The notes under the pieces are model-generated. The model had not been told where the DNA came from. It saw nothing but the letters and a program-made list of their open reading frames with translations, and made no database searches. From a virus: 32,994 bases of DNA. The stretch lies in the IMG/VR virus record IMGVR_UViG_3300047300_000714, positions 1 to 32,994 of that record. One strand, given 5' to 3'. This document shows, one piece after another, positions 4,734 through 32,810 of the stretch (the stretch's first letter is position 1; every line of letters begins with the position of its first letter). The translations under genes and the position numbers were made by a program.

Positions 4734-4743
4734 TTATCTAACA
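4734..4743 (-). promoter_or_regulatory. Late promoter-like motif for the protease operon
   Basis: The minus strand reads TGTTAGATAA, five bases before the ATG of the protease gene (4728). The identical 10-mer occurs at three other late gene starts and close variants at four more. The first transcribed base would fall at or just before the ATG, so the message would be almost leaderless. Confidence 0.65.
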
Positions 4744-4762
4744 TCGTTAAAATTATTTATTG

Positions 4763-6793
4763 TTACCCTAAACCAAACGTAGCACCTCTATTTGTTTTTC
4801 TATCCAATGCCTGTTGTGATGTGATATCGTTAGAAACTACATATGCTCTAATTGGCATTTGGTTTGCTTGTTGTATCGTTTGAGAGATTTGAGTTGCAGG
4901 ATTTGCTCCACCCGTTGTTTGGACTTGTGGTGCGGATATTGATGGTGCTCCACCATACGATGGTAGTGTTGCTCCACCTCCTCCACCTATACTTCCTGCA
5001 CTACTTCCACCCGGTACATTAACACTATTTAAATCTTGTACTGCCTTAACACCTGCTGCAACTGTTGCTGCGATTGCCAATGCTCCTGCAACGTTGTTGA
5101 TTGCAATCCATGGCATACCAGCCGTTAATGGAGATGCTGCAAGTGCTTTGATATTAGCCAATTGAGTATTAACAATGATACTACCAACTGCTGCTGCTTT
5201 CTCAATTGCGATTGCTGCTATTGCCAATGCTTTGTTCTTACCTGCTAATTGAGCAAGAGAGTTACCAATACCAGCGATTACTTGCAATCTCTCTAATTGA
5301 GTTTGTTTTTCATATATTGCGGCTTTTGTACGAATATCCTTTATGTTTTGTTCGTGCTCAATCTCAATAGCTTTTAACTTAGCTTTGTTATCCTTTGCAT
5401 TAGCTACTTTGATTGCATATGCCGCATTCTCAATTGCGATACTATTATCCATATAGGCTTGAGTACCTTCAATTAAAGTTTTTTGTTGAGCTTCTAAAAC
5501 CATCAAATCATCTTCGTATTGTTTTATTTTAGCATCATCATCTAACTTCTTAATATCGTTATTATATGCAGCTTTTAGATTTAATCTGATTTGTTGTTTC
5601 TCTGCCTCTGATTTCTTAATGAATTCCTTATCCTCTTCTAATGCCTGTAAATCCTGATTATATTTGTCTAATCTTTGTTGTTTAGATTTTGCCAACTCAT
5701 CAGCAATTGCTTGAGTTTTAATCTCACCAACCTTCTTAGCAAAATCTTCTGCTGCTTTCTTATTATCTTCGTTTATCTTCTTTTGTTGTTCACCGAATCC
5801 AGTCAATGCTTTGATGTATTCAGTTTCAGCTCCAATCTTTTCCGCCTGTAATTGTTTATATTCTGCTGAATCCTTTTTGTATAGAGCTTGTTTTTCGTTA
5901 ATCTCTGCTACCTTTAAATCTCTTGTCTTTTTAGCAAATGCTTTCTCTACATCTAATTTCTTTTGTTCAGTATCTGCAAGTGCTAGAGCTTCGGCTTTCA
6001 TCTTTTCTAATTGAGCCTCATCTAATTTGTTTTCAGCATCTAATCTCTTTAACTTCTCTTGTAGGGCTTTCTCTGCTGCTTCTTTTTGTTTCTCTAAATT
6101 CTCTTTTTGAGTTTTAGTTGTTTTCTTATATCCCTCCTCAAATCTTGCTTCTGCTTTTTCAAAGTTATCTGCAAATCCCGTTACTGATTGTTTTGCACTT
6201 TCCCATGCTCCACTAAAATCACCTTTGATTAATTTACCAACTGCTTCACCTATCTTACCCAATGATTGGAATACTGCGGTTACTGCTGAATATGCTACTT
6301 TAAATGCTTCAGTTACATATGGCATTACTTTAAGGGCAAGTTCAATAAACCCATCAATAAGGGGTTGTAATGCTCCTAATACACCACCTAATGTTTTCTC
6401 AAATGCAATAATGATAGGTTCGAATTTCTTCATTGAACCTTCAGTTTGTGAGAATGCAGCAACTAATCCACCCAATAAACCTACGATTATTCCGATACCC
6501 GTTGCTTTCAATGCTGCACCAAATGATTGAGTTGCTACTTTTGCTTTATTCAAACCAGCACCAACTGCACCCAATGGACCACCGGCTGCTTCTAATGAAT
6601 CAATCCAATCAGATGACGTATTTTTAGCTGATTTAATTTTATCTTCTAAATCATCAATTTGGTTAAATATCTTTTTAAACTCCTCACTACCGGCAGCAGT
6701 TGATTTTAACTGTTGCTTCAATGCTTTTAAATTAGCAATAGTAGGTTCGATATTACCTTCAACGTCTACTTTAACGGTTACCTTTTTGGCCAT
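4763..6793 (-). CDS. Tail tape-measure protein (676 aa)
   Basis: This is the long helical protein that sets tail length and is ejected ahead of the DNA. The N-terminal 60 residues are charged. A hydrophobic stretch (about 98-114, GIIVGLLGGL) is followed by more apolar helices to about 200. A long Lys/Glu/Ala/Gln coiled coil covers about 215-490. A second apolar region lies near 515-585, and a Gly/Ser/Pro-rich tail near 595-645. At about 0.15 nm per residue, the length suggests a tail near 100 nm. The start overlaps the small upstream gene (6771-6929). Confidence 0.9.
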   Translation of the reverse strand: MAKKVTVKVDVEGNIEPTIANLKALKQQLKSTAAGSEEFKKIFNQIDDLEDKIKSAKNTSSDWIDSLEAAGGPLGAVGAGLNKAKVATQSFGAALKATGIGIIVGLLGGLVAAFSQTEGSMKKFEPIIIAFEKTLGGVLGALQPLIDGFIELALKVMPYVTEAFKVAYSAVTAVFQSLGKIGEAVGKLIKGDFSGAWESAKQSVTGFADNFEKAEARFEEGYKKTTKTQKENLEKQKEAAEKALQEKLKRLDAENKLDEAQLEKMKAEALALADTEQKKLDVEKAFAKKTRDLKVAEINEKQALYKKDSAEYKQLQAEKIGAETEYIKALTGFGEQQKKINEDNKKAAEDFAKKVGEIKTQAIADELAKSKQQRLDKYNQDLQALEEDKEFIKKSEAEKQQIRLNLKAAYNNDIKKLDDDAKIKQYEDDLMVLEAQQKTLIEGTQAYMDNSIAIENAAYAIKVANAKDNKAKLKAIEIEHEQNIKDIRTKAAIYEKQTQLERLQVIAGIGNSLAQLAGKNKALAIAAIAIEKAAAVGSIIVNTQLANIKALAASPLTAGMPWIAINNVAGALAIAATVAAGVKAVQDLNSVNVPGGSSAGSIGGGGGATLPSYGGAPSISAPQVQTTGGANPATQISQTIQQANQMPIRAYVVSNDITSQQALDRKTNRGATFGLG

Positions 6794-6929
6794 AATAAAT
6801 TCTTTTTATATATTTCCAAAGTTCCTTCCATGTGGTTGGTTTTTGGTTTTTTCCTTTTGCGATATCTACGTTGTTTGATACACCATAGTAATCATCCAAC
6901 ATCAGTAAATCAATTAGTTCTTTTACCAT
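6771..6929 (-). CDS. 52-aa protein overlapping the tape-measure start
   Basis: The frame runs from ATG at 6929 to TAA at 6771, begins MVKELIDLLMLDDYYG, and has an aromatic, basic second half (TWKELWKYIKRIYYG). It overlaps the first 23 bases of the tape-measure gene in another frame and follows the late motif at 6942-6951 by 12 bases. It would be the first gene of that transcript. Family unknown. In other siphophages the place before the tape measure is held by tail-assembly chaperones, but this product is too short to be assigned so, and the chaperone-like gene is elsewhere (26479-27251). Confidence 0.65.
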   Translation of the reverse strand: MVKELIDLLMLDDYYGVSNNVDIAKGKNQKPTTWKELWKYIKRIYYGQKGNR

Positions 6930-6941
6930 CTTTTTTCTTTC

Positions 6942-6951
6942 TTATCTAACA
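6942..6951 (-). promoter_or_regulatory. Late promoter-like motif for the tape-measure operon
   Basis: The minus strand reads TGTTAGATAA, 12 bases before the ATG at 6929. It lies in the gap between the small virion-protein gene at 6965 and the tape-measure operon. Confidence 0.65.
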
Positions 6952-6964
6952 CTCTTTAAAAATT

Positions 6965-7246
6965 TTAGTAAACATTAAAATCAAAGTATGAGAAATCAAT
7001 ATTGAAATCACCACCCAATGAACCTGGCAATACGTGTATGATTGAATTGTTACAAACACCTATTGAAGTTAATCTTACTAATGTAGTATTGTTTTGAACT
7101 GTGATAACTGCACTACTACCAACTGAAGGTAATGTTACGTTAGACACGAATGTCCACGTGTTACCATCAGGTGATATATACACACCATATTGAGGACCGG
7201 AATTTACACCTTGCTCTGTTAAAACTATTTTCTTTCTTAAACTCAT
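6965..7246 (-). CDS. Small beta-rich tail-tip accessory protein (93 aa)
   Basis: Family not firmly recognised. The sequence has alternating hydrophobic and polar strands and motifs such as GPQYGVYISPDG and NTTLVRLTS, and it looks like a small beta-sandwich. It is the last gene of the tail-tip group (11774 down to 6965) and is followed by the late motif in front of the tape measure. A virion or host-binding role is likely from context. Confidence 0.7.
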   Translation of the reverse strand: MSLRKKIVLTEQGVNSGPQYGVYISPDGNTWTFVSNVTLPSVGSSAVITVQNNTTLVRLTSIGVCNNSIIHVLPGSLGGDFNIDFSYFDFNVY

Positions 7247-7264
7247 ATTCTAATTTTTTATAAG

Positions 7265-8590: not shown

Positions 8591-8601
8591 AGTTTATTAT
8601 T

Positions 8602-10611
8602 TTATACACAATCAGGACAATATCCATCTAAATTAAGTACAACACCATTTATAGTATTTACTGAATAAATTTCACACGTTGATGGATTTGATACCCATCT
8701 ATATCCAGTCACTAAATCATTTCCATATGCATCAAAGTATAATACTGCCGATGGTTCTAATACACCCGTAGATGAATATAAATCATATAGGTATGAGTTA
8801 CATACTGAAATAGGATTACCACTTATTGATAATCTCATTTGACCAATTGGGTATGCTACAACTCCACCACTCGATGCACTTCCACTCACACCCGTACCAT
8901 TTAAGTAAACTAATGGTGATGATGCAAAGTTTGTTTTAACTTCAAATGTTCCCTGTGAGAAATAGTTTTCAGTATCTACATAATATGCTTTACCAAATTC
9001 TCTATTTGCTCCTTTTGAGAATTGTTGTGAAATATAATCTCCATCCAAAGTATCACCAAAGTTCAATTGTTGAACTGCAAGATTGTTAGCAGGTGTTGCT
9101 GAAATCTTATCATTCAGATTAATATATTTGTTGAAATCTTTGATATTTCCTTTCTTATACCATTCATTAAACGGCTCAATTATGAACTCATTTAATTTTG
9201 TTTTATTTGGATATATTACCAAATTAAACTTCTTTTGAACTGATGTAATAAAATCAATCAATTTGATTCCATTCGTTCCATATGGCATGTTCTTTGCCAC
9301 ATCTAATACTAAACCATCACCCGCCTGATTTACTTTCGTTATAGACAAATAAGATTTTGTATTACTACCAGGGTCTAATTTAACACTAAAGTTAGAACCA
9401 CCCTGATTTGTATATTGTAAACGGAACTGATAACTACCCGATGGTAGAGTATCTAAAGTAAATTCCGTAAGTAATTCAAATGTTTGTGTTCGAGTTTGTC
9501 CAGCATTGTATATCTGAACTTCATTCATATATGTGTTATAGTTTGTAAGACTCGTTGTATAATCGGTATATGTATCAACGTTTCTTGCAATCAACTGAAA
9601 TTGAGGAATACCATTTCCAACTGCAGATGATGATACTTCAAAATTAAGATTTAATTCACCTCTTAATTTAGAATTCAATGCCAAATGATACGTTAAACCC
9701 GCATCTAATTGACCACCACCTGCGTACATTATGTTATACCACGGAAATTGTGTTGAACTACCGGCACTTAATACCACATCAGTCATACCACTTCCACTCA
9801 ATGGACCAATTTTAAATTGACCATAAGTTTCAATATCAAAATCACTTAAACCATAAGATGATGTTGGATAAACTGGGTATCTTAATTTGTTATTACATAC
9901 CATATAGATATTATCTACCCAACTTTGGTCCATAAATGAAGATGAGTAGGTGTATCCAAATTCTTCAAAACATGCATCAAATACTGTTTTCATTTTGATT
10001 GCAGGTTTATAATCCTGAACACATAATGCACCATTCTCATTATTGATACCAAAACCACCATTACCCGTTTGATAATCTATCTTCTGTCCATACTCTGCCA
10101 TTGGATAAACAATAGTTCCATTAAACAAATTACCACCCCAAGAAGAGGAGATATTTTCGTAAGAGGATGTATGGTTATATTGTGATAAAGAGCCCGTTAA
10201 ATCGGTTAAAAAGTACCTTTTCAAGTCTCTACCAAAACTAGCTAATCCACCATAGATTGTTACTTCATATGAGTCGATGAATTTGTTTTGATAGATGTTT
10301 ACTCTGTTTAATTGAAGATACCCATCAGAAAGATAGATACCATCAAAATCTAAATAACATCTTACCTTTTTATTAGTTGAAAATGTGTAAGGGTCTTCAA
10401 CTGATATATCATACATAAATTCAAAAAAGTGATTATTTTTCTTTGAACCAGGTAAAGTTATCTGACGAGTAAAATCCGCAGGTAACACACCCAAATCAAA
10501 AAGACCGGTTACGTTATCTGATAACAATATCTGCTCATCTTTGAATAAGTCTAATATAACTCCATCTGCTACTAACTTAAACTTAAATCCTTGTGTACTT
10601 GTTACTCCCAT
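8602..10611 (-). CDS. Large tail-tip protein (669 aa)
   Basis: The N-terminal part carries FTRQITLPGSKKNNHFFEF and then SYEVTIYGGLASFGRDLK. I recall this type from large Bacteroidota phage tail-tip proteins, which probably act like distal tail or tail-associated proteins. Long beta-rich Ser/Thr/Tyr segments fill the middle. The C-terminal 100 residues include Cys (NPSTCEIYSV, YCPDCV) and may be a host-contact domain. Its ATG shares one base with the stop codon of the upstream gene (TAATG), so translation is coupled. The exact role is inferred. Confidence 0.78.
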   Translation of the reverse strand: MGVTSTQGFKFKLVADGVILDLFKDEQILLSDNVTGLFDLGVLPADFTRQITLPGSKKNNHFFEFMYDISVEDPYTFSTNKKVRCYLDFDGIYLSDGYLQLNRVNIYQNKFIDSYEVTIYGGLASFGRDLKRYFLTDLTGSLSQYNHTSSYENISSSWGGNLFNGTIVYPMAEYGQKIDYQTGNGGFGINNENGALCVQDYKPAIKMKTVFDACFEEFGYTYSSSFMDQSWVDNIYMVCNNKLRYPVYPTSSYGLSDFDIETYGQFKIGPLSGSGMTDVVLSAGSSTQFPWYNIMYAGGGQLDAGLTYHLALNSKLRGELNLNFEVSSSAVGNGIPQFQLIARNVDTYTDYTTSLTNYNTYMNEVQIYNAGQTRTQTFELLTEFTLDTLPSGSYQFRLQYTNQGGSNFSVKLDPGSNTKSYLSITKVNQAGDGLVLDVAKNMPYGTNGIKLIDFITSVQKKFNLVIYPNKTKLNEFIIEPFNEWYKKGNIKDFNKYINLNDKISATPANNLAVQQLNFGDTLDGDYISQQFSKGANREFGKAYYVDTENYFSQGTFEVKTNFASSPLVYLNGTGVSGSASSGGVVAYPIGQMRLSISGNPISVCNSYLYDLYSSTGVLEPSAVLYFDAYGNDLVTGYRWVSNPSTCEIYSVNTINGVVLNLDGYCPDCV

Positions 10612-11774
10612 TAGATGATTAATTTATATCCTTGTCCGTAAGCGAATTCGAATGAGTATTGAATCAATTTATCCACTACGCCTGTTTTGAATTGAATATT
10701 TGATGTTACAATCGTAAGTGGTTTAACCTCATTGGTATTATCTAAACACCAATAAATTTCAGTACTTACTAATAATTGTTTTAGTATTTCATTCCATTCT
10801 TCTTCTAACCAGTTTGTATTACAAATGATATTTTGTTTTGAATCTACGATATAATTTAGAGTTTGTGAATCCCATTCATTGTATGAAAGAGTTCTACCCG
10901 TAAATGTACCTAATTGTGGTTGATATGTTCTCTTATCTGATGACATTGATTTTCTATTAATCATGTCCATATTGATGTATTGGAACACACCATATCTATT
11001 TTTAAATTTAATTCTAATATTAGGATACTTTTGTTGACAACCAATTACATATTTGATTGATTGTCCTACTGGAGTACCTCCCGAATATGGTTGTATGGTA
11101 TATGAAGTTAAACCAACCTTTGATAAAGGAAACCCTGTCTCTGATGGTGCAATTGGAAATCCAACCACTAATCCATTACTATTACTACCATAAGATGTAG
11201 GTGCAACACTACCAGTCACTCCACTTTGATTTGTATATAAAACCGAAGTTACTGCTGAATATGGATTTGAACCCCACGCATATCCTACACCTACGTTATC
11301 CTCAAATACACTTTGAGTAGCAGGTCCATCTAATAACATTGGGAAATGTGGAGTTAAAGTATTGATTTGTTGACCAATAGTTTCAGGAAATATTTGATAA
11401 CCATCTAATCCTGCGTAAACATCTGATGATATTCTACTACCTGTCACATATGCACTACCCGATTGATATCTCAAATACGAATCCATCTTATAGTATTTAA
11501 CTGCCGATGGGTTTGATTGTGCTAATTCTGTCATTGTAGAATTAAGGATTCTACTAACATCGAATATACCCGTTAATCCTTGCGATGATGGATACTTTGC
11601 CAATGTCCAAAAATCTCCACTACCTGAATCAGATACAGAACCAGTCCATATACTTAATTCACCGATGTATTGAAAATTCGGTTGTGCTACATATTGTGAT
11701 GAGGAAACCGCAAAGATAACTGGCGATTGTGCCAATGATACCTCTGCTGGGGTTTGTATAAATGAATATGACAT
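10611..11774 (-). CDS. Tail-tip protein (387 aa)
   Basis: First gene of the tail-tip group. The chain is beta-rich, with many Ser, Tyr, Gly and Gln. It includes GIFDVSRILNSTMTE near residues 70-84 and, near the C-terminus, SYNEWDSQTLNYIVDSK and the charged helix WLEEEWNEILKQLL. I recall proteins of this type next to the 669-aa type in Bacteroidota phages but know no specific assignment. The late motif at 11791-11800 stands 16 bases before the ATG. Confidence 0.75.
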   Translation of the reverse strand: MSYSFIQTPAEVSLAQSPVIFAVSSSQYVAQPNFQYIGELSIWTGSVSDSGSGDFWTLAKYPSSQGLTGIFDVSRILNSTMTELAQSNPSAVKYYKMDSYLRYQSGSAYVTGSRISSDVYAGLDGYQIFPETIGQQINTLTPHFPMLLDGPATQSVFEDNVGVGYAWGSNPYSAVTSVLYTNQSGVTGSVAPTSYGSNSNGLVVGFPIAPSETGFPLSKVGLTSYTIQPYSGGTPVGQSIKYVIGCQQKYPNIRIKFKNRYGVFQYINMDMINRKSMSSDKRTYQPQLGTFTGRTLSYNEWDSQTLNYIVDSKQNIICNTNWLEEEWNEILKQLLVSTEIYWCLDNTNEVKPLTIVTSNIQFKTGVVDKLIQYSFEFAYGQGYKLII

Positions 11775-11790
11775 TTTTCTAAATCGTTTA

Positions 11791-11800
11791 TTATTTAACC
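11791..11800 (-). promoter_or_regulatory. Late promoter-like motif (variant) for the tail-tip genes
   Basis: The minus strand reads GGTTAAATAA, two mismatches from TGTTAGATAA, 16 bases before the ATG at 11774. It is the weakest member of the set and was accepted because of its position. Confidence 0.45.
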
Positions 11801-11827
11801 TAACTAAAATAAAAAATTAGTGATGGA

Positions 11828-12253: not shown

Positions 12254-12263
12254 CTATCTTATT

Positions 12264-12794: not shown

Positions 12795-12819
12795 AAGTTA
12801 TTTGTTTACATTTGTGAAT

Positions 12820-13338: not shown

Positions 13339-13344
13339 ATTATG

Positions 13345-14700: not shown

Positions 14701-14702
14701 AA

Positions 14703-15056
14703 TTAATCCATTATAATGTACTCATTAGTAGATACATTTGAAACATATCCATCATTTTGATTTAAATAATTTGCTTTATCTCCTGTTTGTGGTCTGAATA
14801 CCTGTAAAGAACCATGCCAAATCTCCTTTGTACCATTGATTAATGTTGCACGATATTCTTCACCCGTTATGGTAGAAGCTAAACTTGCAGTAAATGATAA
14901 AAGAGATTCATACCCATCATATGATATGTTGGATAAAGATGCAGTAGAGTTTACTTGTGTTGTCATATCTTGCAATGACATCGTAAATGTATTTGAACTC
15001 GTAACTTCCGTTCTTATTGTGTATCCGTTACTTCCTGAAAGGTAATATGTTAGCAT
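14703..15056 (-). CDS. Small beta-rich virion protein (117 aa)
   Basis: Family not recognised with certainty. Thr, Ser and Tyr dominate in alternating strands (SNTFTMSLQDM, EEYRATLING, EIWHGSLQVF). It could be a head decoration protein or part of the neck. It is the first gene under the late motif at 15085-15094 and ends two bases before the portal start. Confidence 0.7.
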   Translation of the reverse strand: MLTYYLSGSNGYTIRTEVTSSNTFTMSLQDMTTQVNSTASLSNISYDGYESLLSFTASLASTITGEEYRATLINGTKEIWHGSLQVFRPQTGDKANYLNQNDGYVSNVSTNEYIIMD

Positions 15057-15084
15057 GAGTTTGTATTTATCTCGTTGTTACTAT

Positions 15085-15094
15085 GTATCTAACA
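15085..15094 (-). promoter_or_regulatory. Late promoter-like motif for the portal/neck genes
   Basis: The minus strand reads TGTTAGATAC, 28 bases before the ATG at 15056. It follows the terminator of the tail-tube gene, so the portal group needs its own promoter. Confidence 0.6.
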
Positions 15095-15117
15095 CCTCCA
15101 AATAGAAATATCATCAA

Positions 15118-15150: not shown

Positions 15151-15173
15151 AATATGTTCAATGTGCTTACTGA

Positions 15174-15734: not shown

Positions 15735-15770
15735 AGTGTATAATTTTTTTTAAGTTAAAGTTTTAATAAA

Positions 15771-15792
15771 GGGGTGAGTGTTATCCCACCCC
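15771..15792 (-). terminator. Weak hairpin between capsid and tail-tube genes
   Basis: GGGGTG pairs with CACCCC (15771-15776 with 15787-15792). On the minus strand it is followed only by TTTATT, so it is probably a partial terminator or an mRNA-stabilising hairpin. This would set capsid above tail-tube expression. Confidence 0.5.
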
Positions 15793-15806
15793 ATTATCAG
15801 TTATTT

Positions 15807-16784
15807 TTAGTAAGCTCCGTATAATACGATATCTTGTCCGATACCGAAAGTTGTTGCTCCCGTGTATCTCATAATGATTCTGTAGTTTTGAGAACCATCG
15901 ATGTTTGCCATGTCTAATACTCTTACTTCGTTGAAATCAGATAATAAACCTGTACCGAAGTGTAAGTTAGATTTTTGAGCTGCTACGATAGTAGATGCTG
16001 GCATACCTGGACACAATACGATTTCAATACCATTGAAGTTGAATGGTTTGTCACCAACGTTCATTTGGTTGTTCCATCCGTTAGCACCTACTGCTCCACC
16101 TGCTAATGCTTGTTGGTAAGCTTTTGCTACGTTTGTTGGAACGTATAACAATAAGTCTTCCTTACCATAAACTGTATCAGGAATAGTAGATACTACTGAA
16201 TCTAATTTAGATAATACGTTAGCTGAAGTTACGCTACCAGAGATGATTGCTGATGAACCACCACTTGCTCTTGCTGGTAATACTGCTGTTGCTCCACCTG
16301 CTGCAACTGATGCAGATAACGCTGGGATTAAACCACCGAATTGACCTGAAGTTGCTGCATTACCTTGCCAAATAGATTGTTCAGTTGCTTGAGCAACGAT
16401 ACCACCTACATAAGAAATTAAGTAATCGTTGAAATCCTTTGGAATCTCATCGAATGCAGAATATCCTAATTGTAAAGCCTCCCAAGAATCTACGAATTGT
16501 TGCTTACATAATTGTAAGTTTACTTGTAATTCTTTTGGAGTTAAAACTGCTTCTGTTAAAGTTACAGTTCCTGCTGTTGTAAAATCACACGATGCATCTG
16601 CTACGATTGAATCTACTGCGATTTTTTGAATCACCTCTTTGTATTTTACGTTAGGGTGAATCGTAATGTACTTGTTATCCAAAGTCTTAGCAGATAACAA
16701 AGCCGCTGCGATGTACTGACCTGCGAACTCACCTGCGTAGGTAGAGTTGATTGTAGGTTCAGTGAATTTTTGAATTTTTTTCAT
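15807..16784 (-). CDS. Major capsid protein (HK97-fold candidate, 325 aa)
   Basis: Starting at MKKIQKFTEP (base 16784), the product has 325 residues; a longer frame to 16865 overlaps the scaffold gene and is rejected. The middle and C-terminal parts have features of capsid proteins of this host group: CKQQFVDSWEALQLGYSAFD, a Gly/Ala-rich loop (GQFGGLIPALSASVAAGG), NVAKAYQQALAGG, NGIEIVLCPGMP and YRIIMRYTGATTFGIGQDIV. The N-terminus contains STYAGE (residues 14-19), shared with the protease tail. The scaffold is directly upstream, 25 bases away. Confidence 0.85.
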   Translation of the reverse strand: MKKIQKFTEPTINSTYAGEFAGQYIAAALLSAKTLDNKYITIHPNVKYKEVIQKIAVDSIVADASCDFTTAGTVTLTEAVLTPKELQVNLQLCKQQFVDSWEALQLGYSAFDEIPKDFNDYLISYVGGIVAQATEQSIWQGNAATSGQFGGLIPALSASVAAGGATAVLPARASGGSSAIISGSVTSANVLSKLDSVVSTIPDTVYGKEDLLLYVPTNVAKAYQQALAGGAVGANGWNNQMNVGDKPFNFNGIEIVLCPGMPASTIVAAQKSNLHFGTGLLSDFNEVRVLDMANIDGSQNYRIIMRYTGATTFGIGQDIVLYGAY

Positions 16785-16809
16785 TTTTAAATGATTTTTT
16801 TGGTTAAAA

Positions 16810-17535
16810 TTATTTGTATAATTTAGATAAGAATGAAGATTGATAATCTGCTGATTTCTTACCAAAATTGTTTTTACCTTGTAATGCGTTTGGTTCTAAT
16901 GGAGCTCCATCTAATTTAGGTAACTCTTCTTCATCATCCTCTTCAGGCTCAACCGAACTCATTGTTGTTGCGATTGGTTCTAATGAAGAAACTTGCTCAC
17001 CTTCTGCTGGAAATGCAGATTCCATTTTCTCCATTACACTTTTTAATTGTTTTTCTAATTCGTCAATTCTATATGACATTCTGATGATTGGGTCTTTCTC
17101 TTCATCAGTATCTTCACCTAATGAATTTCTGATATCCTCATCAGTTGTGTTTGGAAGTGATTTAGCTTCTTCAGTTGTTACATCTGCTAATTCCTCTTCA
17201 GTTGTTGCTTCTTTATCAACAACCTCTTCATCAACATTTTCCAAATCAGCTGGTGCTTCTTCTTCAACGTTTTCACGAGATGTTATCTTACCATCTTTAG
17301 TTTCAATTCTGATAACAACTTTGTTACCTTCTGAATCAGTTAATTCAATCTCGTGTTCACCATCCGGTGCTGGAGTTTTAGTTCCATCTTCTGAAACTAC
17401 ATCAACACTCTCTCCTAAATCGAATGTTGGGGATTGTAAGATATTACCTTGTGCATCTTTAGCATCAGTAAATTCTACCTCTTTATCTAAAGATAACAAT
17501 GTTAATATTTTTCCTAATACGCTTTTTGAGTTCAT
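16810..17535 (-). CDS. Scaffold-like acidic protein (241 aa)
   Basis: A very acidic protein (many Glu/Asp runs, about residues 65-150 and 195-215) with a short coiled coil (RMSYRIDELEKQLKSVMEKM) and a basic, aromatic C-terminal end (KKSADYQSSFLSKLYK). This layout, acidic and helical with a basic C-terminal capsid-binding helix, and the position directly before the capsid gene fit an internal scaffold that the prohead protease later removes. No sequence family is recognised. The late motif lies 15 bases upstream. Confidence 0.75.
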   Translation of the reverse strand: MNSKSVLGKILTLLSLDKEVEFTDAKDAQGNILQSPTFDLGESVDVVSEDGTKTPAPDGEHEIELTDSEGNKVVIRIETKDGKITSRENVEEEAPADLENVDEEVVDKEATTEEELADVTTEEAKSLPNTTDEDIRNSLGEDTDEEKDPIIRMSYRIDELEKQLKSVMEKMESAFPAEGEQVSSLEPIATTMSSVEPEEDDEEELPKLDGAPLEPNALQGKNNFGKKSADYQSSFLSKLYK

Positions 17536-17550
17536 ACTATAAAGTTTTTA

Positions 17551-17560
17551 TTATCTAACA
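17551..17560 (-). promoter_or_regulatory. Late promoter-like motif for scaffold and capsid
   Basis: The minus strand reads TGTTAGATAA, 15 bases before the ATG at 17535. AAC stands at 18-16 bases before the motif, as also at the sites 19800-19809 and 26446-26455, which might be an upstream (-35-like) contact. Confidence 0.7.
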
Positions 17561-17587
17561 TAGGTAAAATGTTTTGTTATCATTTTT

Positions 17588-18811
17588 TTACATTTCACCA
17601 AAAATATATTTATCAGCACGATTTATTCCATCGCCTGATTTAAGTAATTTTATTATTTTTTCATCAACTAAATCCGGATGTACCCACCAATCTTCATAAG
17701 ATGAGTAATCATCAACACCTACATCAGATACAACTAATTGGTATCCGAATGATTCTAAATATCTTCTACTCTTATCTCTAATTGTTTCATCTACATAGTA
17801 ATCATGCTCAAATGTTATGACTCTAAATTTATGTTTCCAAAATGGTATCTTTAACAACACCTCATAACTAATATGTGGTGGGTCTACATCGATTTGTAAG
17901 TAATCCGTTACCGATTGTAAATCCCATATAGGCATCTTATCCCAATCCACTTTAGTAGCATCCATAATATAGGGTTTAGTTCTTCTTCCTACCCACTTAT
18001 TTTCAACGTTCTCGTCTAAATCGATAGAAACCCCATCCCAATCAAAATCTCTCTCTAAAAGGAAAGTATTGTTACCATAATACGGGTCTGCACAACCTAT
18101 CTCAATCCAACTTCCCCATCTCTTACCATTCAGTGCCATAAGAACAAATAAGTCCTGATATGATTGTGAATAATTTCTTTCAATCAATTCACTACCTTCA
18201 AATTTGTATCTTAATCTTTGAAACTCATCCTTTTTATATGTGGATGGTTCTTTCCAATTATTACTGAATAGATTCAGATTTCTTTGTATTGCATCTTTGT
18301 AATGTTGTGGTATGTTATTCATTTTAGATAACTTTCTGAATATAGAAGCACTCTCATCGAATATTCCTATCCAATATCCACAAACTGCTTGTTCAAATCC
18401 AAACACCCACCAACCTGGATACTCTAAATCAGTAATTGTATTTCCTTCTTTTAATGGAAATGTATCACCAACTATTGCCATTGAATATCCTTCTTGCCAT
18501 TCTCTATTTCTCTCGTGTGCTCTTACCAATAAATGGTATGCTTCAACTCTTTGTGGTAATAAACTAATTGCTCGTAAGATTAATCCTTTAATCATAAACC
18601 ATCTATCACCTTGCTTCTCAAAACACAATGCCATACGAAGTAGTGCTTCATAAGATAGTTCTAAATCGTTTCCAAATTCAGTAACTCTCAAATAGAATCC
18701 ACACGCAGATGCAGTTTGACCCATTTGTTCATATTTCCAACCTAAATCAAAGTTTACTCTGATATCTCGTGGATTTTGTATGTACTGATGTAATAATTCT
18801 TTTAACTCCAT
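17588..18811 (-). CDS. TPR protein with FkbM-like methyltransferase domain (407 aa)
   Basis: Two parts are visible. Residues about 15-125 are helical TPR-like repeats (VNFDLGWKYEQMGQTASACG, LSYEALLRMALCFEKQGDR). Residues about 212-400 look like an FkbM-type SAM-dependent methyltransferase: SQSYQDLFVL, the SAM-binding loop EIGCADPYYG (237-246), SIDLDE (262-267) and YLQIDVDPPH. Related TPR/FkbM proteins occur, from memory, in marine phages beside sugar-modifying genes. It overlaps the GH130-like gene by 10 bases, so the two are co-translated. A role in modifying glycans of the virion or host surface is inferred; the substrate is unknown. Confidence 0.75.
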   Translation of the reverse strand: MELKELLHQYIQNPRDIRVNFDLGWKYEQMGQTASACGFYLRVTEFGNDLELSYEALLRMALCFEKQGDRWFMIKGLILRAISLLPQRVEAYHLLVRAHERNREWQEGYSMAIVGDTFPLKEGNTITDLEYPGWWVFGFEQAVCGYWIGIFDESASIFRKLSKMNNIPQHYKDAIQRNLNLFSNNWKEPSTYKKDEFQRLRYKFEGSELIERNYSQSYQDLFVLMALNGKRWGSWIEIGCADPYYGNNTFLLERDFDWDGVSIDLDENVENKWVGRRTKPYIMDATKVDWDKMPIWDLQSVTDYLQIDVDPPHISYEVLLKIPFWKHKFRVITFEHDYYVDETIRDKSRRYLESFGYQLVVSDVGVDDYSSYEDWWVHPDLVDEKIIKLLKSGDGINRADKYIFGEM

Positions 18812-19779
18812 ATAACCGATTCAATTTGTGTTTGAGGAACTCTTAAAATAAATGCTGCATTGTCCTGAAATGCGAATGAGATTAACATATCACCTTTCCA
18901 AAACGCCATACCACAACAAAACTCTATCTCACCATCTAAAAATGAGAACTCTTCTGAAATATGTTTGATATTCCAATCTAAATCCCATACTACAAATTTG
19001 TGTGTGTACTTTGCGTTTCTTTGGTCTATCTTATTTTTCCAAAGTTTAGTTTCGTGTATAATAGCAATACGATAATCTCCCCAACGAATGACTTGTGAAC
19101 TACCTCTCATATTCTGATATTCGCCAACACCTTCTTTATGTACTATTTGCGTTGATTGTAATGTATTGATATCAGCAAGGACTACTTCAGTTGGATTAGC
19201 CCACTTAACATAGTGAAATGGTAAATCTTCAACTACCATCCAATTCTTTTCACAATAGGAATCTTTATCTATTGGTGCTTCTATTCGGTATCTACCTATC
19301 TCTCTCCAATCAGTTGGGTCTAACTTACTTAATTCCATTCTACCCTGTCCCTCATCGGTTGTATCTCTTCTTACACCTGATAACCAATACTCTGCATTCC
19401 ATTTGATTAATCTACCATCTTCTAAACCATAGAACTCCCATTTAGGAGGAACATCTCTTAATGATGTATCTATTCTTGTCCATTTATCAATTGATAGGTC
19501 ATCGTTTAACTCCAACATATAGTTGATAGTTTTTAACTTAACATCATTTTCAGGATTAAGATATGCCAAAGGACCGTGTCTATTTCCAAACACTTGCTTT
19601 CCTTCACAATGCATTAGTGTGTAATTAACGTGTCTTAAATTACAAAGTAATCTATCCCCATCTACAAAGATAGAGGGATTCATAAGACCTGTTCCGTTTG
19701 TTTCTGTTGAGGGAATGATGAGTGGGGAAATATCCCCACCCTTCGAAATAATTTCTTTAACTAGATTTGATTTTGCCAT
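18802..19779 (-). CDS. GH130-like five-bladed beta-propeller protein (325 aa)
   Basis: The pattern LMNPSIFVDGDRLLCNLRH, FYGLEDGRLIKW (EDGR at 120-123, near the EDPR motif that carries the catalytic acid in GH130), CEKNW (176-180), then a late ISFAFQDNAAFILRVP strand pair fits a GH130/GH43-like propeller. GH130 enzymes phosphorolyse or hydrolyse beta-mannosides, but phage members may be sugar-binding or transferase-like. A virion or late cell-surface role is inferred from the late motif 20 bases upstream and from co-translation with the methyltransferase. Confidence 0.68.
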   Translation of the reverse strand: MAKSNLVKEIISKGGDISPLIIPSTETNGTGLMNPSIFVDGDRLLCNLRHVNYTLMHCEGKQVFGNRHGPLAYLNPENDVKLKTINYMLELNDDLSIDKWTRIDTSLRDVPPKWEFYGLEDGRLIKWNAEYWLSGVRRDTTDEGQGRMELSKLDPTDWREIGRYRIEAPIDKDSYCEKNWMVVEDLPFHYVKWANPTEVVLADINTLQSTQIVHKEGVGEYQNMRGSSQVIRWGDYRIAIIHETKLWKNKIDQRNAKYTHKFVVWDLDWNIKHISEEFSFLDGEIEFCCGMAFWKGDMLISFAFQDNAAFILRVPQTQIESVIWS

Positions 19780-19799
19780 CTTATAGAATTTGCCATTTG

Positions 19800-19809
19800 T
19801 TATTTAACA
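19800..19809 (-). promoter_or_regulatory. Late promoter-like motif for the sugar-modification pair
   Basis: The minus strand reads TGTTAAATAA (one mismatch from TGTTAGATAA), 20 bases before the ATG at 19779. AAC stands at 18-16 bases before the motif. Confidence 0.6.
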
Positions 19810-19820
19810 TAGGAAAACTC

Positions 19821-19841
19821 TAAAGTTGTAATTAACAACTT
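19821..19841 (-). terminator. Weak hairpin at the end of the fibre operon
   Basis: AAGTTGT (19823-19829) pairs with ACAACTT (19835-19841), with the stop codon of the gene at 19832 in the loop. The following T content on the minus strand is low (TTTAGAGTTTTCC), so termination would be partial. Confidence 0.4.
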
Positions 19842-20410
19842 CCTAATCCTGCACTATTGGAATAGTATTGTATGTTGTATTGTGTAACATAACACGTTCC
19901 ATCACATGCAGATGAGAAGTTACAATATTGGTATTGTTTCTGATAGAATGTAAAGTTACCACTACTTTGTCCGTTGTAAATTAAAACATCAGCATATGCA
20001 CTACCTATACTACCACCATAATCTTGCACATCTTCATAATCATAACTAAATGTGATAGTGATTGTATTACCGGTATTATTATTTATTACATTACCATATT
20101 GGTCTTTAAGAGTTGCAGTTAGTATCAACCATTCATCGTTATAAGATGGGTTACAACTTGCGTAATATTGAAGTGATGTACCCCAACTGAAACAATTCAA
20201 TGTTGATGGTGGTGCAACTAAATCCTGATAACGTGGACATCTATTGGATGGGTAACTATTGTAAGGAGATGCTGATGTATCTACATTAAAGTAAGTATCC
20301 ACCCATCCCTTTGTAGCAATTTCATTACTATCCGCAGGAGTTCCACCCTTTAAGGTGAAACCCATTGTCTTTACATCACTATGTGTTACTAAATAATTGT
20401 TAGATTTCAT
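19832..20410 (-). CDS. Tail-fibre-associated protein (192 aa)
   Basis: Residues 10-40 (VKTMGFTLKGGTPADSNEIA and TKGWVDTYF) look like the short linker that often starts phage fibre domains. The rest is beta-rich with many Tyr, Asn and Ser, and its Cys residues (NRCPRY, LNCFSW, ACDGTCYV) may form disulfides. Its ATG shares one base with the stop of the collagen-like fibre gene, so it is translated with it. It may be a receptor-binding tip or a fibre chaperone; the sequence does not decide. Confidence 0.7.
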   Translation of the reverse strand: MKSNNYLVTHSDVKTMGFTLKGGTPADSNEIATKGWVDTYFNVDTSASPYNSYPSNRCPRYQDLVAPPSTLNCFSWGTSLQYYASCNPSYNDEWLILTATLKDQYGNVINNNTGNTITITFSYDYEDVQDYGGSIGSAYADVLIYNGQSSGNFTFYQKQYQYCNFSSACDGTCYVTQYNIQYYSNSAGLGSC

Positions 20411-22884
20411 TAGTTACCTTTTAATGTATCTATTTCAGATTTTAACTCCTGAACTGCTTTAATCAATAAACCAATCGCAGAGTTTGAATCCATTGAGTTT
20501 TGTTTCTTTGTAGATAATTCAATTGGAGTATCTTCAGCGATAAATCCAATATGGTCGTTCTCCAAATCATTTAGATAGTTGAATTTAACAACCTCTACTA
20601 ATCCTAACAATTCAGTTGCTTTCTTATCCCATTTCTCAATATTAGTTTTAAACTTACGAGAAGAGTTTTGATAGAATGCATCTGCGTAAATTGTATTACC
20701 ACTTACATAAACTGAACTATTTGTATATGCTGCATTGGAACTACCATTACTAATTACAATTGCCGTATTATATGCTGGAGATATAGTATTGAAACCACTA
20801 CCCGTTGCTCCCGCAGGTCCCTGTGAACCTTGCTGACCTGGACTACCATTTGAACCCGCAGGACCTTGCGGACCAGCAGTTCCTTGTCCCGTTGCTCCGG
20901 TATAACCTTGTGCTCCCGTAGCACCCTGCGGACCAGTACCACCCGTAGCTCCTTGTGTTCCCGTACCATTAGCACCGGCAGGTCCTTGCGTACCTTGCTG
21001 TCCACCACTACCCGCAGGTCCTTGCGCACCTTGCGTTCCCGTTACTGATTGACCAATTGCTCCTTGTGCACCCTGAAATCCAGTTGTACCTTGCGAAGTA
21101 AATAATTGCCAGTATGTAGGTGCACTTAATGGATTTTGGTTTGTACCATTCTGAATTGAAACGTAAGTATTTCCAGCATATGATACAACATCATTAACAA
21201 CGTATGCAGTTGCACCACTCCACGTATTTTTCCAACTAAATCCACTACCTGTTGCTCCGGTTGTACCTTGCGTTCCTGCTCCCGTTGCTCCTTGTGCTCC
21301 TTGCGTTCCTTGCTGTCCTCCACTTCCTGCTGCTCCTTGCGGTCCTTGTGCACCTGTTGTAGATTGTCCCATACCACCTTGCGCACCTTGCACCCCATCT
21401 GCTCCTGCTGCTCCTTGTACACCGGGACTACCCGTAGCACCTTGTGTACCCATTTGTCCAACACCACCAGTTGGTCCTGCTGGTCCTTGCGGACCTGTTG
21501 TTCCCTGAATTGAACCTAAAGGAACTGCTGCTGATTTATTGTTAGGTTGTCCTACCCAAATATATCCATTTGCTAATGATGCAGTGAATTGTCCACTTAC
21601 ACTCAATGAGCCAGTTACCGATGTATCACCACTTAATACGTTATTATCAGATTTAATTAATGCTTGTGTGTATGTACCATTATCGTATAATGATATTTCA
21701 TCAAAAACATAATCATATCCATTATTGATAACAAATTGAACTTTATTACCATTTGTAGTTGGTCCTACTGCTAATCCTGCGTATCTACTAAAATCTGCAT
21801 TCGAAAATTCAATAATAAAGTTTTGGTCTATATTTGAACTTGCATAATCTTGCAAACTCATATTAGCCAACGTATATGTTATACCATTTGCTCCAACAAA
21901 TGGTGCAAAGTTAAATAAGTTTGTTTGTGATTCAGAACTTGCAGTTGGAAGATTTGTTTGGAAATTTCCATTTATACTCACCGGTCCATTTACAATAGCC
22001 GAAGATGCAGTTATACTTCCTGTTACTGCTAAGTTTTGTAACATAGCCACATTACGAGGGAACGTTACTCTACCATCGGTAAATGATGCGGATGCTTGTA
22101 ACTCCATAGCAACATATTGTTGACCAGAACCACTCAATGCTAAAATAGCAGGTTTAGTAGATGTTGCTAATGAAGGTGCTCCTATCTTCGATGGGTTACC
22201 ACTCATTCCAATTTGACCTCCTTCAACAGTTGAAGTAAATCCAGTCTTATTTAGTACACTAACATTTACTAAATTACCACTACCCGATACGTTAGAAATT
22301 GCAGTTGGTCCCCATTGTGATGTACCGCCCGATGCACTTACAAATAATACATTGATAGATGGATTATAGAATAAATTATCGCCTGAATCCTTTGATATAG
22401 TACTACCACTTACGAATAATATTGGATATTGTGTATTAGTAGATACTGATGCAGGTGTTATATTTAAATTACCACTTATACTTTGGTCACCAACAAATAT
22501 ATTCGAACCCGTTGTTGCATATGAGCCAGTTTTTGAACTTAACCCATTTACTATTGTATCGTTACTTGCAGTATATGCATTGAACGATGAAGTTGTTACT
22601 AATGAGCCGGTATTAATGTTTGTTACTAATGATGATGTTGCGAATGGAATTGATTTACCACTACTATCACCAACCCAAACATATCCTTGCTGAAGTGATG
22701 CGGTTAAACCACCTACAATTGTTTGTTCACCTATGAATGTATTACTACCACTTAATAATGCCGAAGAACTAATCCAACTTTCGTTTAGAGTTCTTACATC
22801 AGCAGCAGTAATACTACCCGATACGTTTGTTACATATGTTGCGTTACTTGCTGATATTAATTGGGCTTGTGTATATTGAGCCAT
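20410..22884 (-). CDS. Tail fibre with collagen-like repeats and S74 chaperone domain (824 aa)
   Basis: Residues 1-455 are Ser/Thr/Gly-rich fibre sequence with a module also found in the fibre at 23733. About 458-545 and 600-695 are collagen-like Gly-X-Y repeats rich in GPQGPAG, GAQG and GATG. A globular insert between them (about 545-600, with [18 protein letters not shown] and TYWQLF) resembles small chitin/carbohydrate-binding modules. The C-terminal 85 residues resemble the self-cleaving chaperone of endosialidases (peptidase S74): [12 protein letters not shown] supplies a Ser and Lys five residues apart, and HIGFIAED follows. The chaperone would trimerise the fibre and then be released. 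Confidence 0.88.
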
Positions 22885-22900
22885 ATTATATATTTTTATT

Positions 22901-23731: not shown

Positions 23732-23732
23732 A

Positions 23733-26138: not shown

Positions 26139-26154
26139 ATTATATGATTTCTAT

Positions 26155-26430
26155 TTATTCAGCTGTTTGATTATCAAATCCATCATCATAACCATTTGAG
26201 AATGCTCCTCTCTCTGTGAGTGTTCCTTGAATTACACCAATACCTTGCGATATCAATGCTCCTCCGCAACAATCTCTCCCATATCTATCCTCATTAACGC
26301 ACAAACATCCACGTCTATCATTCTTTGGAGAAGATAAACCACGAGTTGGTCCGATATATATACCGCTTGCGTTCTGTCTATTAACAGAATATCTTAAATT
26401 ACCATTACGGGAGTTAGACCATATAGCCAT
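26155..26430 (-). CDS. Small Cys-containing virion-associated protein (91 aa)
   Basis: The protein begins MAIWSNSRNGNLRY and contains CLCVNEDRYGRDCCGGALIS followed by QGIG. From memory, small proteins with such a Cys-Cys-G and QGIG pattern occur just before fibre genes in Bacteroidota phages. Its role is unknown; four clustered Cys could bind metal or form disulfides. It is the first gene under the late motif at 26446-26455 and so leads the fibre operon. Confidence 0.72.
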   Translation of the reverse strand: MAIWSNSRNGNLRYSVNRQNASGIYIGPTRGLSSPKNDRRGCLCVNEDRYGRDCCGGALISQGIGVIQGTLTERGAFSNGYDDGFDNQTAE

Positions 26431-26445
26431 AGTGTGAATCGTTTC

Positions 26446-26455
26446 TTATCTAACA
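26446..26455 (-). promoter_or_regulatory. Late promoter-like motif for the fibre operon
   Basis: The minus strand reads TGTTAGATAA, 15 bases before the ATG at 26430. AAC stands at 18-16 bases before the motif. It lies in the gap after the chaperone-like gene stop at 26479. Confidence 0.7.
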
Positions 26456-26478
26456 TTCCCAATCTAAAAAGTTATTGA

Positions 26479-27251
26479 TTATTTATGTGAGTTCAATATA
26501 GCATCGTGCATCATTTTTTCCAATAGTGCTTTATCTGCTTTAAATGCAAGAAGTAACAAACACTTTTCTAATGGTTGATTGATTACTGAATCTATTTTAT
26601 CTACATCCCCATTTGCTAGTTCAACAATAGCTGCATAAGATTTCCACTTTTTGGAAAAATTGTATTGAAGTTGGGAAGTATCGCCTGAAGGGTCTGCATC
26701 GAAGAGTTCTGGGTAGCGTTCATTAAGTCCGTTAAGGTATGAACAAAAAAAAACAATGCACCGAAATGAACATCCATTGTTACGTTTAGAAACTTATCTT
26801 TATCTATCTTACCATCATATGGCTTGATTGAATATAATCCTCCCTTATTCTTTGTTAGTATTGGACGGTATAAGATACTCATTATCTTTGCCCAATTATC
26901 ATCGATGGTGACTGTATCCCATTGTGAGATATCTGCGTACGCACCATATGTTATTTCTGAAAGGTTTGGTTCAAATCCATATTCCACATTATCTATCCAA
27001 ATTGTTTGTTGTAGTGGCATCTCTTCGGGATTTAAGAATGTAACCAATCCTTGCTTTAATTCATCGTATGAACTCTTTGAGATATTCTTTAGATATTCAA
27101 CGGGAAAATCACATAGGTGGTGTAACATTAACGCAACTTGTGCCTCCTCATCATCAGAGTATGCTTCCAATTCAGATTGTAGAGTTAGATATTTTTTAAG
27201 AGTTACATCTGCCCAACTCTCTGGCATTGTTATTTCTATTTCCTTTTTCAT
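26479..27251 (-). CDS. Tail-assembly-chaperone-like protein joined by a -1 frameshift (257 aa)
   Basis: The frame from ATG at 27251 runs through MDVHFGALFFF and then ends at 26616 with 42 unconvincing residues. One base back (-1), reading continues after a run of nine T (A26745-26753 on plus) for 88 protein-like residues, with LNGLNERYPELFDADPSGD, KKWKSYAAIVELANGDVDKI and DKALLEKMM, to TAA at 26479. The first 165 residues (WADVTLKKYLTLQSEL, MSILYRPILT) and this second part together resemble chaperone-like tail proteins of Bacteroidota phages. The in-frame T TTT TTT is a canonical -1 slip site, so two products of 211 and 257 residues, as with lambda G/GT, are possible. A homopolymer error is the main alternative. 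Confidence 0.72.
26745..26753 (-). other. Slippery T9 run at the frameshift
   Basis: Nine T on the minus strand are read as TTT TTT TTT in the zero frame, so the heptamer T TTT TTT is in the right phase for -1 slippage. After it, the zero frame reads GTT CAT and the -1 frame TGT TCA TAC. Confidence 0.7.
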
Positions 27252-27263
27252 AGTTTACAATTG

Positions 27264-27443
27264 TTAATTTACATTTGTGAACATCTTTAACATATTTTTC
27301 AGACGTATCACTTTTCTTTCTTCGTTTTGTAATTTGGCTTCCATTGCGATTATACCCGCACGAAGGTCTTCATTGATTTCTTGCAACTCCTTTACATAAA
27401 GTAGTATTTGTTTAATCTCTTCAGATGTCCATTGTTGTTCCAT
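27264..27443 (-). CDS. 59-aa coiled-coil protein between terminase and chaperone genes
   Basis: The frame runs from ATG at 27443 (three bases after the terminase stop at 27447) to TAA at 27264, and the next gene starts 12 bases on. The product begins MEQQWTSEEIKQIL and is a single helix with coiled-coil spacing (LLYVKELQEINEDL, AMEAKLQNEERKVIRLKNM). The tight packing supports a real gene. The function is unknown; a small assembly or terminase partner is possible. Confidence 0.7.
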   Translation of the reverse strand: MEQQWTSEEIKQILLYVKELQEINEDLRAGIIAMEAKLQNEERKVIRLKNMLKMFTNVN

Positions 27444-27446
27444 ATA

Positions 27447-28625
27447 TTATCTTATTGATATTGAGTACTTACCTGCGTTTATCTTCTTTGCGTTTAATCT
27501 TTCCATTACTACATAACGTATTGCATCTATTGCGTGATTGGAATAATCTACGGGAATGTTTTCAAAGTTGCCATTCTTATCTACCATCCATACATACTCA
27601 CTAAATTCGGTTATTGTATTCTTGCTTCTTTTTGTCACATTTAAACGATATTGTTGCATAAGGTCTATTCCTAACTTAATAGAATCTTTTCCTTTCTTAA
27701 CGGGTTTAATATTGAAGCCTGAACGATATATCTCTTCAATCAATCTTCCTTCCGCACTATCTCCCCATATTTCGTTTCTATCTATCTCTAATCTCTTTAA
27801 TTCGTTTATGATATCAGAGGTAACCATTCCCGTCTTATACATCAATTCATCTATGTACAAATCCTTATCTATTCTTGCTACCGCAACTAATGTGGTTGGG
27901 TCATTACTAAATCCATAATCCATACCAAATGCAATGAACTCTGCGTTCTCCGGTATCTCATCTACTATGTTAATATTAAAGATTGTTCCGATGTTATTAC
28001 CGGGTAGACCAAGTCCATATATCTTATAATACTCTGGATTAATCGTTTTAAGACGTTCTATCTCTTCAACGATAGATTGTTCCAAAAAAGGATTATCGAG
28101 GAATGTAGATATGTACAAATCACTCTGTGGGTGTGTCTGAATCTCATTGAAGATATAGTTGTTAGTTCCAAAGGATGGGTTGTATGCTACAATGGTTTTA
28201 ACTCTCGTTCTGATAAACAATTGAAAGAAATCTTCTCTACTTAATTCATTACACTCGTCCACAAAGAGGTAATCACGTGATGTACCTTTTCTCTTCTCTG
28301 CGTTATCAATAGACATAAACTCTATGATTGAACCACCATCAAAATGATATAGGTGTTCAGTTGCACTCCATCTCGTTTCATCCCATATATCCAACTCCTT
28401 CATAATGTTTGTAAAATCACGCAGGATGGATACCCTCATTGATGGGAATGATTTTCTTACTACTGATATTAAGATATTAGGTTGTGATAGTGCTTGTACG
28501 ATTAACCATTGTAGTGCTGAATGTGACTTACCACTTCTCGTACCACCTTGTAGTATTGCTATCTTACGGGATGATTCTATATCCCTATACGTTTTCGTTG
28601 TTTGTATTTTCAGTTCCTTTGCCAT
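27447..28625 (-). CDS. terL: Terminase large subunit (392 aa)
   Basis: The ATPase and nuclease motor that packages DNA. Walker A GGTRSGKS is at 27-34 and Walker B YLFVDECNE at 119-127, with the catalytic Glu. The nuclease domain shows its three acidic sites: Asp236 (GMDYGF), Asp289 (GDSAEGR) and Asp367 (HAIDAIRY). The length is normal to short for this family. The start overlaps the small-subunit gene by 41 bases, and no later Met before Walker A is available, so the overlap is real. Confidence 0.95.
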   Translation of the reverse strand: MAKELKIQTTKTYRDIESSRKIAILQGGTRSGKSHSALQWLIVQALSQPNILISVVRKSFPSMRVSILRDFTNIMKELDIWDETRWSATEHLYHFDGGSIIEFMSIDNAEKRKGTSRDYLFVDECNELSREDFFQLFIRTRVKTIVAYNPSFGTNNYIFNEIQTHPQSDLYISTFLDNPFLEQSIVEEIERLKTINPEYYKIYGLGLPGNNIGTIFNINIVDEIPENAEFIAFGMDYGFSNDPTTLVAVARIDKDLYIDELMYKTGMVTSDIINELKRLEIDRNEIWGDSAEGRLIEEIYRSGFNIKPVKKGKDSIKLGIDLMQQYRLNVTKRSKNTITEFSEYVWMVDKNGNFENIPVDYSNHAIDAIRYVVMERLNAKKINAGKYSISIR

Positions 28626-28908
28626 CTTTTATTTCAATAACTACTTTACTTATCTTATGTGTCAGTTCACCTTCCAATTCTAACTTTGTTTGTTTAGGTA
28701 GAACGTAATCAATAAACTTTGCAGTTAGACGTATTGCTTCTTCTGGATTCTTCTTACGAATCTTTTCAATATCAGTTACCCAATGTTGTACTTGCCCCGT
28801 TACAACCGCAGATATCATATCTTTAAGTTGTTGGGTTGTCTTATTCTCCGAACCGCGAGGTCTTCCCTTTAAGTTCCTATTCTTATCATCACCTTTTTTA
28901 AATGCCAT
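28585..28908 (-). CDS. terS: Terminase small subunit-like protein (107 aa)
   Basis: The N-terminus MAFKKGDDKNRNLKGRPRGS followed by ENKTT is the basic Gly-Arg-Pro-Arg-Gly opening common to small terminase subunits of Bacteroidota phages. A helical middle (AIRLTAKFIDYVLPKQTKLE) and a charged C-terminus follow. The small subunit recognises the packaging site and stimulates the large subunit. The position directly upstream and the overlap with terL support the call. Confidence 0.8.
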   Translation of the reverse strand: MAFKKGDDKNRNLKGRPRGSENKTTQQLKDMISAVVTGQVQHWVTDIEKIRKKNPEEAIRLTAKFIDYVLPKQTKLELEGELTHKISKVVIEIKDGKGTENTNNENV

Positions 28909-28928
28909 AGTATTTCATAGTATTATCT

Positions 28929-28938
28929 ATATCTAACA
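28929..28938 (-). promoter_or_regulatory. Late promoter-like motif for the terminase operon
   Basis: The minus strand reads TGTTAGATAT, 20 bases before the ATG at 28908, in the 49-base gap after the last early gene. It marks the border between early and late blocks. Confidence 0.65.
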
Positions 28939-32808: not shown

Positions 32809-32810
32809 AT

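Follow-up and report, generated by a model that had tools for sequence, protein, structure and literature searches.

A predicted sigma factor and a candidate two-part late promoter in uncultured viruses that appear to infect Bacteroidota

A two-part element between late genes

The window analysed here is the whole of the 32,994-base linear IMG/VR virus record IMGVR_UViG_3300047300_000714, whose minus strand encodes a Terminase_3 large terminase subunit (TerL), a portal protein and a tape measure gene, and in which a short shared element stands in the gaps before groups of late genes. The element has two parts, a -35-like box (TAACTAcaa or TAACTATTTT) and, at fixed spacing from it, the word TGTTARATA; the consensus of the type found in the window is TAACTAcaa-N13-TTGTTARATA. 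A preliminary description of this DNA had proposed a single motif as the late promoter, and that motif is retained here, but as the -10 half of a larger element. The sites are given below with the rank that each takes among 65,914 window positions (both strands) under a matrix trained on 70 sites from relatives, none of them from the window.

28929..28960, minus strand: predicted late promoter of the terminase group (28585-28908, then TerL at 27447-28625); -10 box TGTTAGATAT at 28938-28929; rank 3
26446..26477, minus strand: predicted late promoter before 26155-26430; -35 box AATAACTTTT, -10 box TGTTAGATAA at 26455-26446; rank 5
19800..19831, minus strand: predicted late promoter before 18802-19779; -35 box TTACAACTTT, -10 box TGTTAAATAA at 19809-19800; rank 1
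17551..17582, minus strand: predicted late promoter before 16810-17535 and the major capsid protein (MCP) gene; -10 box TGTTAGATAA at 17560-17551; rank 9
15085..15116, minus strand: predicted late promoter before 14703-15056 and the portal gene; -10 box TGTTAGATAC at 15094-15085; rank 6
11791..11822, minus strand: predicted late promoter before 10611-11774; -10 box GGTTAAATAA at 11800-11791; rank 8
6942..6973, minus strand: predicted late promoter before the small open reading frame (ORF) 6771-6929 and the tape measure gene; -10 box TGTTAGATAA at 6951-6942; rank 21
6771..6929, minus strand: ORF of 52 amino acids (aa), first in the tape-measure group, with the promoter 12 nucleotides (nt) ahead
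4734..4765, minus strand: predicted late promoter before the protease-like gene 3865-4728; box at 4743-4734; rank 4
32777..32808, plus strand: ninth late-type promoter, predicted; -10 box TGTTAGATAT at 32799-32808; rank 2

The eight minus-strand sites had all been named in the preliminary description, and their coordinates and letters proved exact on re-check: TGTTAGATAA occurs four times, on the minus strand only (4743, 6951, 17560 and 26455), and the four variants read as quoted there. Each of the eight lies in a gap before late genes, at a distance from the first ATG, formerly given as 5-28 bases, that measures 5, 12, 16, 28, 15, 20, 15 and 20 nt, with a second ATG only 10 nt from the 28938 site. 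The A at -17 said to be present in nearly all sites was counted in seven of eight, and AAC at -18 to -16 in three. That list, however, missed the ninth site, on the plus strand, which ranks second under the matrix, the ranks of seven of the original eight being 1, 3, 4, 5, 6, 8 and 9.

Placement is striking, given that the non-coding share of the late span is below 4%. The minus strand of the whole window has TGTTARATA seven times, always in gaps before late genes (the plus strand has it once), and GTTARATA nine times, eight of them in gaps. A looser scan that allows two mismatches is uninformative, with no excess genome-wide (72 observed, 82 expected), so it is the strict core and where it stands that carry the signal. 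An equal frequency of the motif in coding positions, which the preliminary description had held would refute a promoter, was not seen. Among late gaps of at least 30 bases, in fact, only 15735-15806, downstream of the MCP gene, lacks the motif. That promoter-free gap holds a GC-rich hairpin with a T tail (15771-15792, minus strand), and the hairpins found there in relatives differ in sequence; another terminator-like hairpin, at 15150-15124, lies upstream of the 15085..15116 promoter.

The promoter and the sigma factor among relatives

About 200 related loci were gathered by portal, TerL and sigma searches, and yielded 343 gap segments after deduplication. Motif discovery over relatives, a check suggested in the preliminary description, was run blind, with the window motif unused, and gave the same motif: the top 8-mers in the 343 segments were TTGTTAAA, TGTTAAAT and GTTAAATA, and TAACTACA-type words were among the next most enriched. 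Expectation-maximization on the relatives' gaps returned 81 sites with a second conserved word upstream at fixed offset (C at -19, A at -17, C or T at -16), and this analysis together with the matrix places the conserved upstream box at offsets -21 to -14 with fixed spacing. The -35 score was +3.5 at the correct spacing and at most -1.0 at every shift, and none of 20,000 random draws equalled it. In eight genomes that share the -10 class of the window (class A, see below), the window included, 55 of 68 strand-correct matches fell in gaps, six to eight per genome, under a matrix that included some of the scored sites. Whole-contig maps of near-complete relatives show the same promoter ahead of the same operons, and a small ORF of about 51-54 aa is preceded by it there as at 6771-6929. 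Gap placement, blind discovery in relatives and the relatives-only matrix together support the reading of the element as a late promoter, proposed earlier for the late groups. It stands before eight late operons, as had been claimed, but is not confined to late structural genes, since it also precedes a predicted small RNA on the opposite strand. Generic scans for sigma-70 promoters and terminators found no more than shuffled sequences did.

The proposed reader of this promoter is encoded outside the late operons.

29882..30439, minus strand: ECF-like (extracytoplasmic function-like) phage sigma factor of 185 aa with sigma2 and sigma4, predicted from profiles, conservation and fold

Its product matches phrog_1740 (sigma factor) with E = 2e-10, and TIGR02937 (ECF sigma superfamily) and TIGR02985 (a Bacteroidetes ECF family) are matched by 33 of 33 aligned members. 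The protein has the ECF-type architecture, with only sigma2 and sigma4 (such factors measure about 160-200 aa) and two helical domains in the predicted fold (mean predicted local distance difference test score 84.9), and its best matches among PDB structures are the ECF sigmas L, H, K and RpoE in initiation complexes, as well as a gp79-dependent promoter complex. In all 41 testable TerL loci (those with at least 2.8 kb of upstream DNA) the sigma gene lies upstream of TerL, 0.3-2.6 kb before it. No relatives of the sigma factor were found in annotated phage records by tblastn or in bacterial genomes by alignment search. The viruses of this family are uncultured, with Bacteroidota as host phylum; as neither search found a relative of the sigma, we name the host no finer than that. 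The sigma-like identity given to this product in the preliminary description stands, as ECF-like; that it reads the late promoter we infer from the match between -10 class and sigma tree.

That match is as follows. Three promoter classes share TAACTAttttt and TGTT and differ afterwards, with TGTTAAATA in class A (that of the window), TGTTTTTA in class B and TGTTATTA in the third, and the late sites of one genome are mostly of one class. The TGTTTTTA class corresponds exactly to one clade of the sigma tree (support 99), and the -10 class follows that tree, with no shuffle scoring as low in classes A, B and C. Classes A and B have different fixed residues at several positions, N68H, L69M and M73Y among them, where the predicted region 2.4 helix (residues 69-87) begins; the ISKST segment of the region 4 helix-turn-helix is nearly invariant across sigma relatives. 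This residue pattern fits a region 4 that would read the constant -35 box and a region 2 that would read the changing -10 box, and the promoter and the sigma factor appear to have changed together between related viruses.

Early genes carry exact host-type promoters (TTTG-N20-TAnnTTTG).

32673..32704, minus strand: host-type early promoter (-33 TTTG / -7 TAnnTTTG), exact match, upstream of the run of early genes to which the sigma gene belongs
276..307, plus strand: host-type early promoter, exact match, before gene 339-605 (plus strand)
715..746, plus strand: host-type early promoter, exact match, before gene 777-1040 (plus strand)

The first of these is the sole exact match on the minus strand, where the late region has none, and the late motif is indeed unlike the early boxes, as had been noted. 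The host primary-sigma promoter was thereby tried and rejected for the late sites, which lack it, and it fits the early promoters. A sigma gene downstream of a host-type promoter and outside the late operons, and a shared element before late operons that is distinct from the host consensus, are both present here, and both are features of late systems of the 7-11 and phiEco32 type.

A proposed mechanism and its alternatives

We consider it very likely (probability about 0.87) that this phage has an ECF-like sigma factor with its own late promoter, functionally like the systems of phages 7-11 and phiEco32. In the early phase, to judge from the exact promoter matches, host RNA polymerase with the host primary sigma would transcribe the early genes from TTTG/TAnnTTTG, one of them being 29882-30439, which encodes the small sigma with regions 2 and 4 only. 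This protein would then join the host core polymerase and direct it to TAACTAcaa-N13-TTGTTARATA, with region 4 (ISKST) reading the conserved -35 box and region 2 reading a -10 box with TGTT fixed and its later bases dependent on the clade. The regulon would comprise the eight late operons and one small RNA on the opposite strand.

Counted from the first T of the box, offsets of roughly 10-12 are the probable start point of transcription, since this is where some late ATGs, and the small RNA's 5' stem as well, begin. With such a start, several of the late mRNAs would lack a leader. The 3865-4728 mRNA would be leaderless or nearly so, as its ATG is only 5 nt past the box. At twelve sites, in relatives and in the window, the ATG stands 2 or 5 nt after the ten-base box, and where relatives share the gene behind such an ATG the N-termini agree. 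The 5' stem of the small RNA starts at about the same offset from the box as these close ATGs.

Several observations weigh against the proposed phage sigma and late promoter. The window sigma scores 31.2 against TIGR02937, for which the curated cut-off is 42.9, and its NCBIfam and Pfam scores in general are under the curated cut-offs, the reason we call it ECF-like. Site 6951 has no recognisable -35 box and reaches only rank 21. Classes D and E are noisy and poorly defined, many of their assignments being based on a single site, and the covariation of sigma and promoter could partly reflect common descent, as the two share ancestry. The estimated start, 2-4 nt past the box, is nearer than the 6-9 nt reported for phiEco32 and 7-11 promoters. 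Finally, the sigma-promoter system is a computational prediction throughout.

It is unlikely that the boxes, although true promoters, are read by an alternative (ECF) sigma of the host and that the phage sigma-like protein has some other role. ECF sigmas are common in Bacteroidota, and the closest NCBIfam family of the window sigma is in fact the Bacteroidetes ECF family TIGR02985; a host sigma, however, would not be expected to face a -10 box that varies by phage clade in step with the phage sigma, and the latter is present in 41 of 41 testable TerL loci. We find it harder still to credit that the boxes act as operators, bound by an activator or repressor of the phage, beside ordinary host promoters. 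Conserved short boxes whose distance to the ATG varies could serve that purpose, but the late region has no exact host-type promoter (the only minus-strand one being at 32704-32673), the boxes are arranged as -35 and -10 elements at a strictly fixed spacing, and they stand directly ahead of ATGs and of the small RNA's 5' stem. Least probable of all is a translational or RNA-processing signal, or chance. Some boxes are 2-5 nt from an ATG, and an analogous box in phage P12024S, described below, is always 4 nt away; yet in the window family the distance ranges from 2 to about 30 nt, the upstream box keeps its spacing to the -10 box and not to the ATG, and the box also precedes a non-coding RNA. 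We therefore rejected a translational signal, and gap placement is far beyond chance.

A sigma factor encoded by the phage itself has known parallels, here taken from the parts of the sources available. Phage 7-11 has its own sigma (SaPh711_gp47), a two-part promoter before about eight late units and early genes left to host sigma, as proposed for the window; its consensus, however, is GTAAtg-(16)-aCTA, its host is enterobacterial and the system is biochemically proven, whereas ours is predicted and belongs to Bacteroidota, and that account describes no clade-wise -10 change or small RNA, both of which are predicted for the window family (PMC8948821). In phiEco32, the sigma gp36 likewise uses its own -10-like element (tAATGTAtA) at middle and late promoters, but this is a single element and gp36 has no region 4 homologue, in contrast to the -35 box and region 4-like helix-turn-helix of the window system (PMC8948821, PMC4331800). 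The latter is different from both in consensus, host phylum and clade-specific -10 boxes. Late promoters of T4 (gp55) also have a -10-like element with TAAATA (TATAAATA, compared with GTTAAATA here), but they have no -35 box and require the sliding clamp (review, PMC2988020); a promoter of this type, with TATAAATA as single element, is ruled out by the -35 box conserved at fixed spacing.

The closest cultured relative found by portal is Nonlabens phage P12024S (NC_018271, our locus L144), at 33% identity. Its gp33 has sigma-70 region 2 and is encoded upstream of TerL, as in the window, and a box, CGTTAATA, occurs five times on its plus strand (3019, 5400, 23949, 25189 and 26790), each exactly 4 nt before a late ATG. 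The -10 sequence is different and sigma similarity was undetected by tblastn. Some CGTTAATA boxes have a host-type box of the minus strand (CAAATATA, TAnnTTTG in reverse complement) a short way upstream. In the papers searched, the CGTTAATA boxes are not described as late promoters.

Bacteroidota phages are abundant, yet the open-licence literature searched gives no prior description of a phage-specific late promoter for this group or, in the papers searched, for Bacteroidota phages at large. With the proposed system, a large uncultured clade gains an early/late switch that can be tested. Its natural series of sigma/-10-box pairs, with the -35 box constant, could help to understand how ECF-like sigmas shift their -10 specificity, and orthogonal promoters could be drawn from such pairs. 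Translation control in hosts without Shine-Dalgarno sites is a further question, on which the predicted leaderless late mRNAs bear, as does a late small RNA that would target start codons.

A predicted small RNA and other features of the window

Directly downstream of the ninth promoter (32799) lies a segment that ends in a terminator hairpin.

32811..32908, plus strand: predicted structured small RNA of about 100 nt (z = -4.57); terminator hairpin AACTCCGGAG-TTTGTGCCATCAT-CTCCGGAGTT-T5, loop GUGCCAU

In relatives (L005, L174, L177, L202 and L211 carry family members), the RNA has a 5' domain made of P1, a 9-nt bulge and P2, followed by a terminator with the loop UGCCAU or UGUCAU; the window copy is without the bulge domain, and its promoter, terminator and loop assign it to the family. 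Searching by structure alone, a descriptor matched at 84 places, of which 29 also had the loop and a TGTT box, and at 36 places in reversed sequences, none of which had both. At many positions of P1 and P2 three or four kinds of base pair occur, under a descriptor that itself demanded pairing. The promoters of these RNAs show the -10 class of their own phage. Rfam 15 gave no family match with E <= 1 in window positions 32600-32994 or with E <= 0.5 in six loci carrying family members, and the RNA appears to be a new, predicted family with covariation support.

In 15 of 21 cases the loop can pair over at least 7 nt with the start of a gene next to it, compared with 6.7% of all starts, and loops fit the starts of their own neighbours better than swapped ones, only 26 of 20,000 permutations being as good. 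L202 provides a compensatory case, a UGUCAUUG loop with a CAAUGACA start. Several of these neighbours are HNH endonucleases, and in the window the loop of the terminator shows complementarity to start codons of early genes nearby. We give roughly even odds to the possibility that the late sigma drives this new family and that the loop UG[C/U]CAU covers the AUG of an early gene, often an HNH endonuclease, and would thereby silence early mRNAs late in infection. Targeting of start codons would be apt in hosts with no Shine-Dalgarno sites (PMC6847099). A 6S-like or packaging role was also considered, and nothing specific was found in its support.

Other observations concern the gene map. The listed MCP ORF begins at a TTG within the upstream gene (16784-16865, minus strand), and its true start is likely the ATG at 16784 (MKKIQKF). 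Gly-X-Y collagen-like repeats at 20410-22884 (minus strand) likely belong to a tail fibre protein. Gene 26616-27251 (minus strand) has a T9 run at 26745-26753, and the -1 frame is open for about 90 residues further, to 26479; the T-run and a conserved downstream frame are also found in three relatives (G004, G012 and G019). The arrangement resembles the programmed -1 frameshift of tail assembly chaperones, and the extension to 26479 would narrow the gap ahead of promoter 26455.

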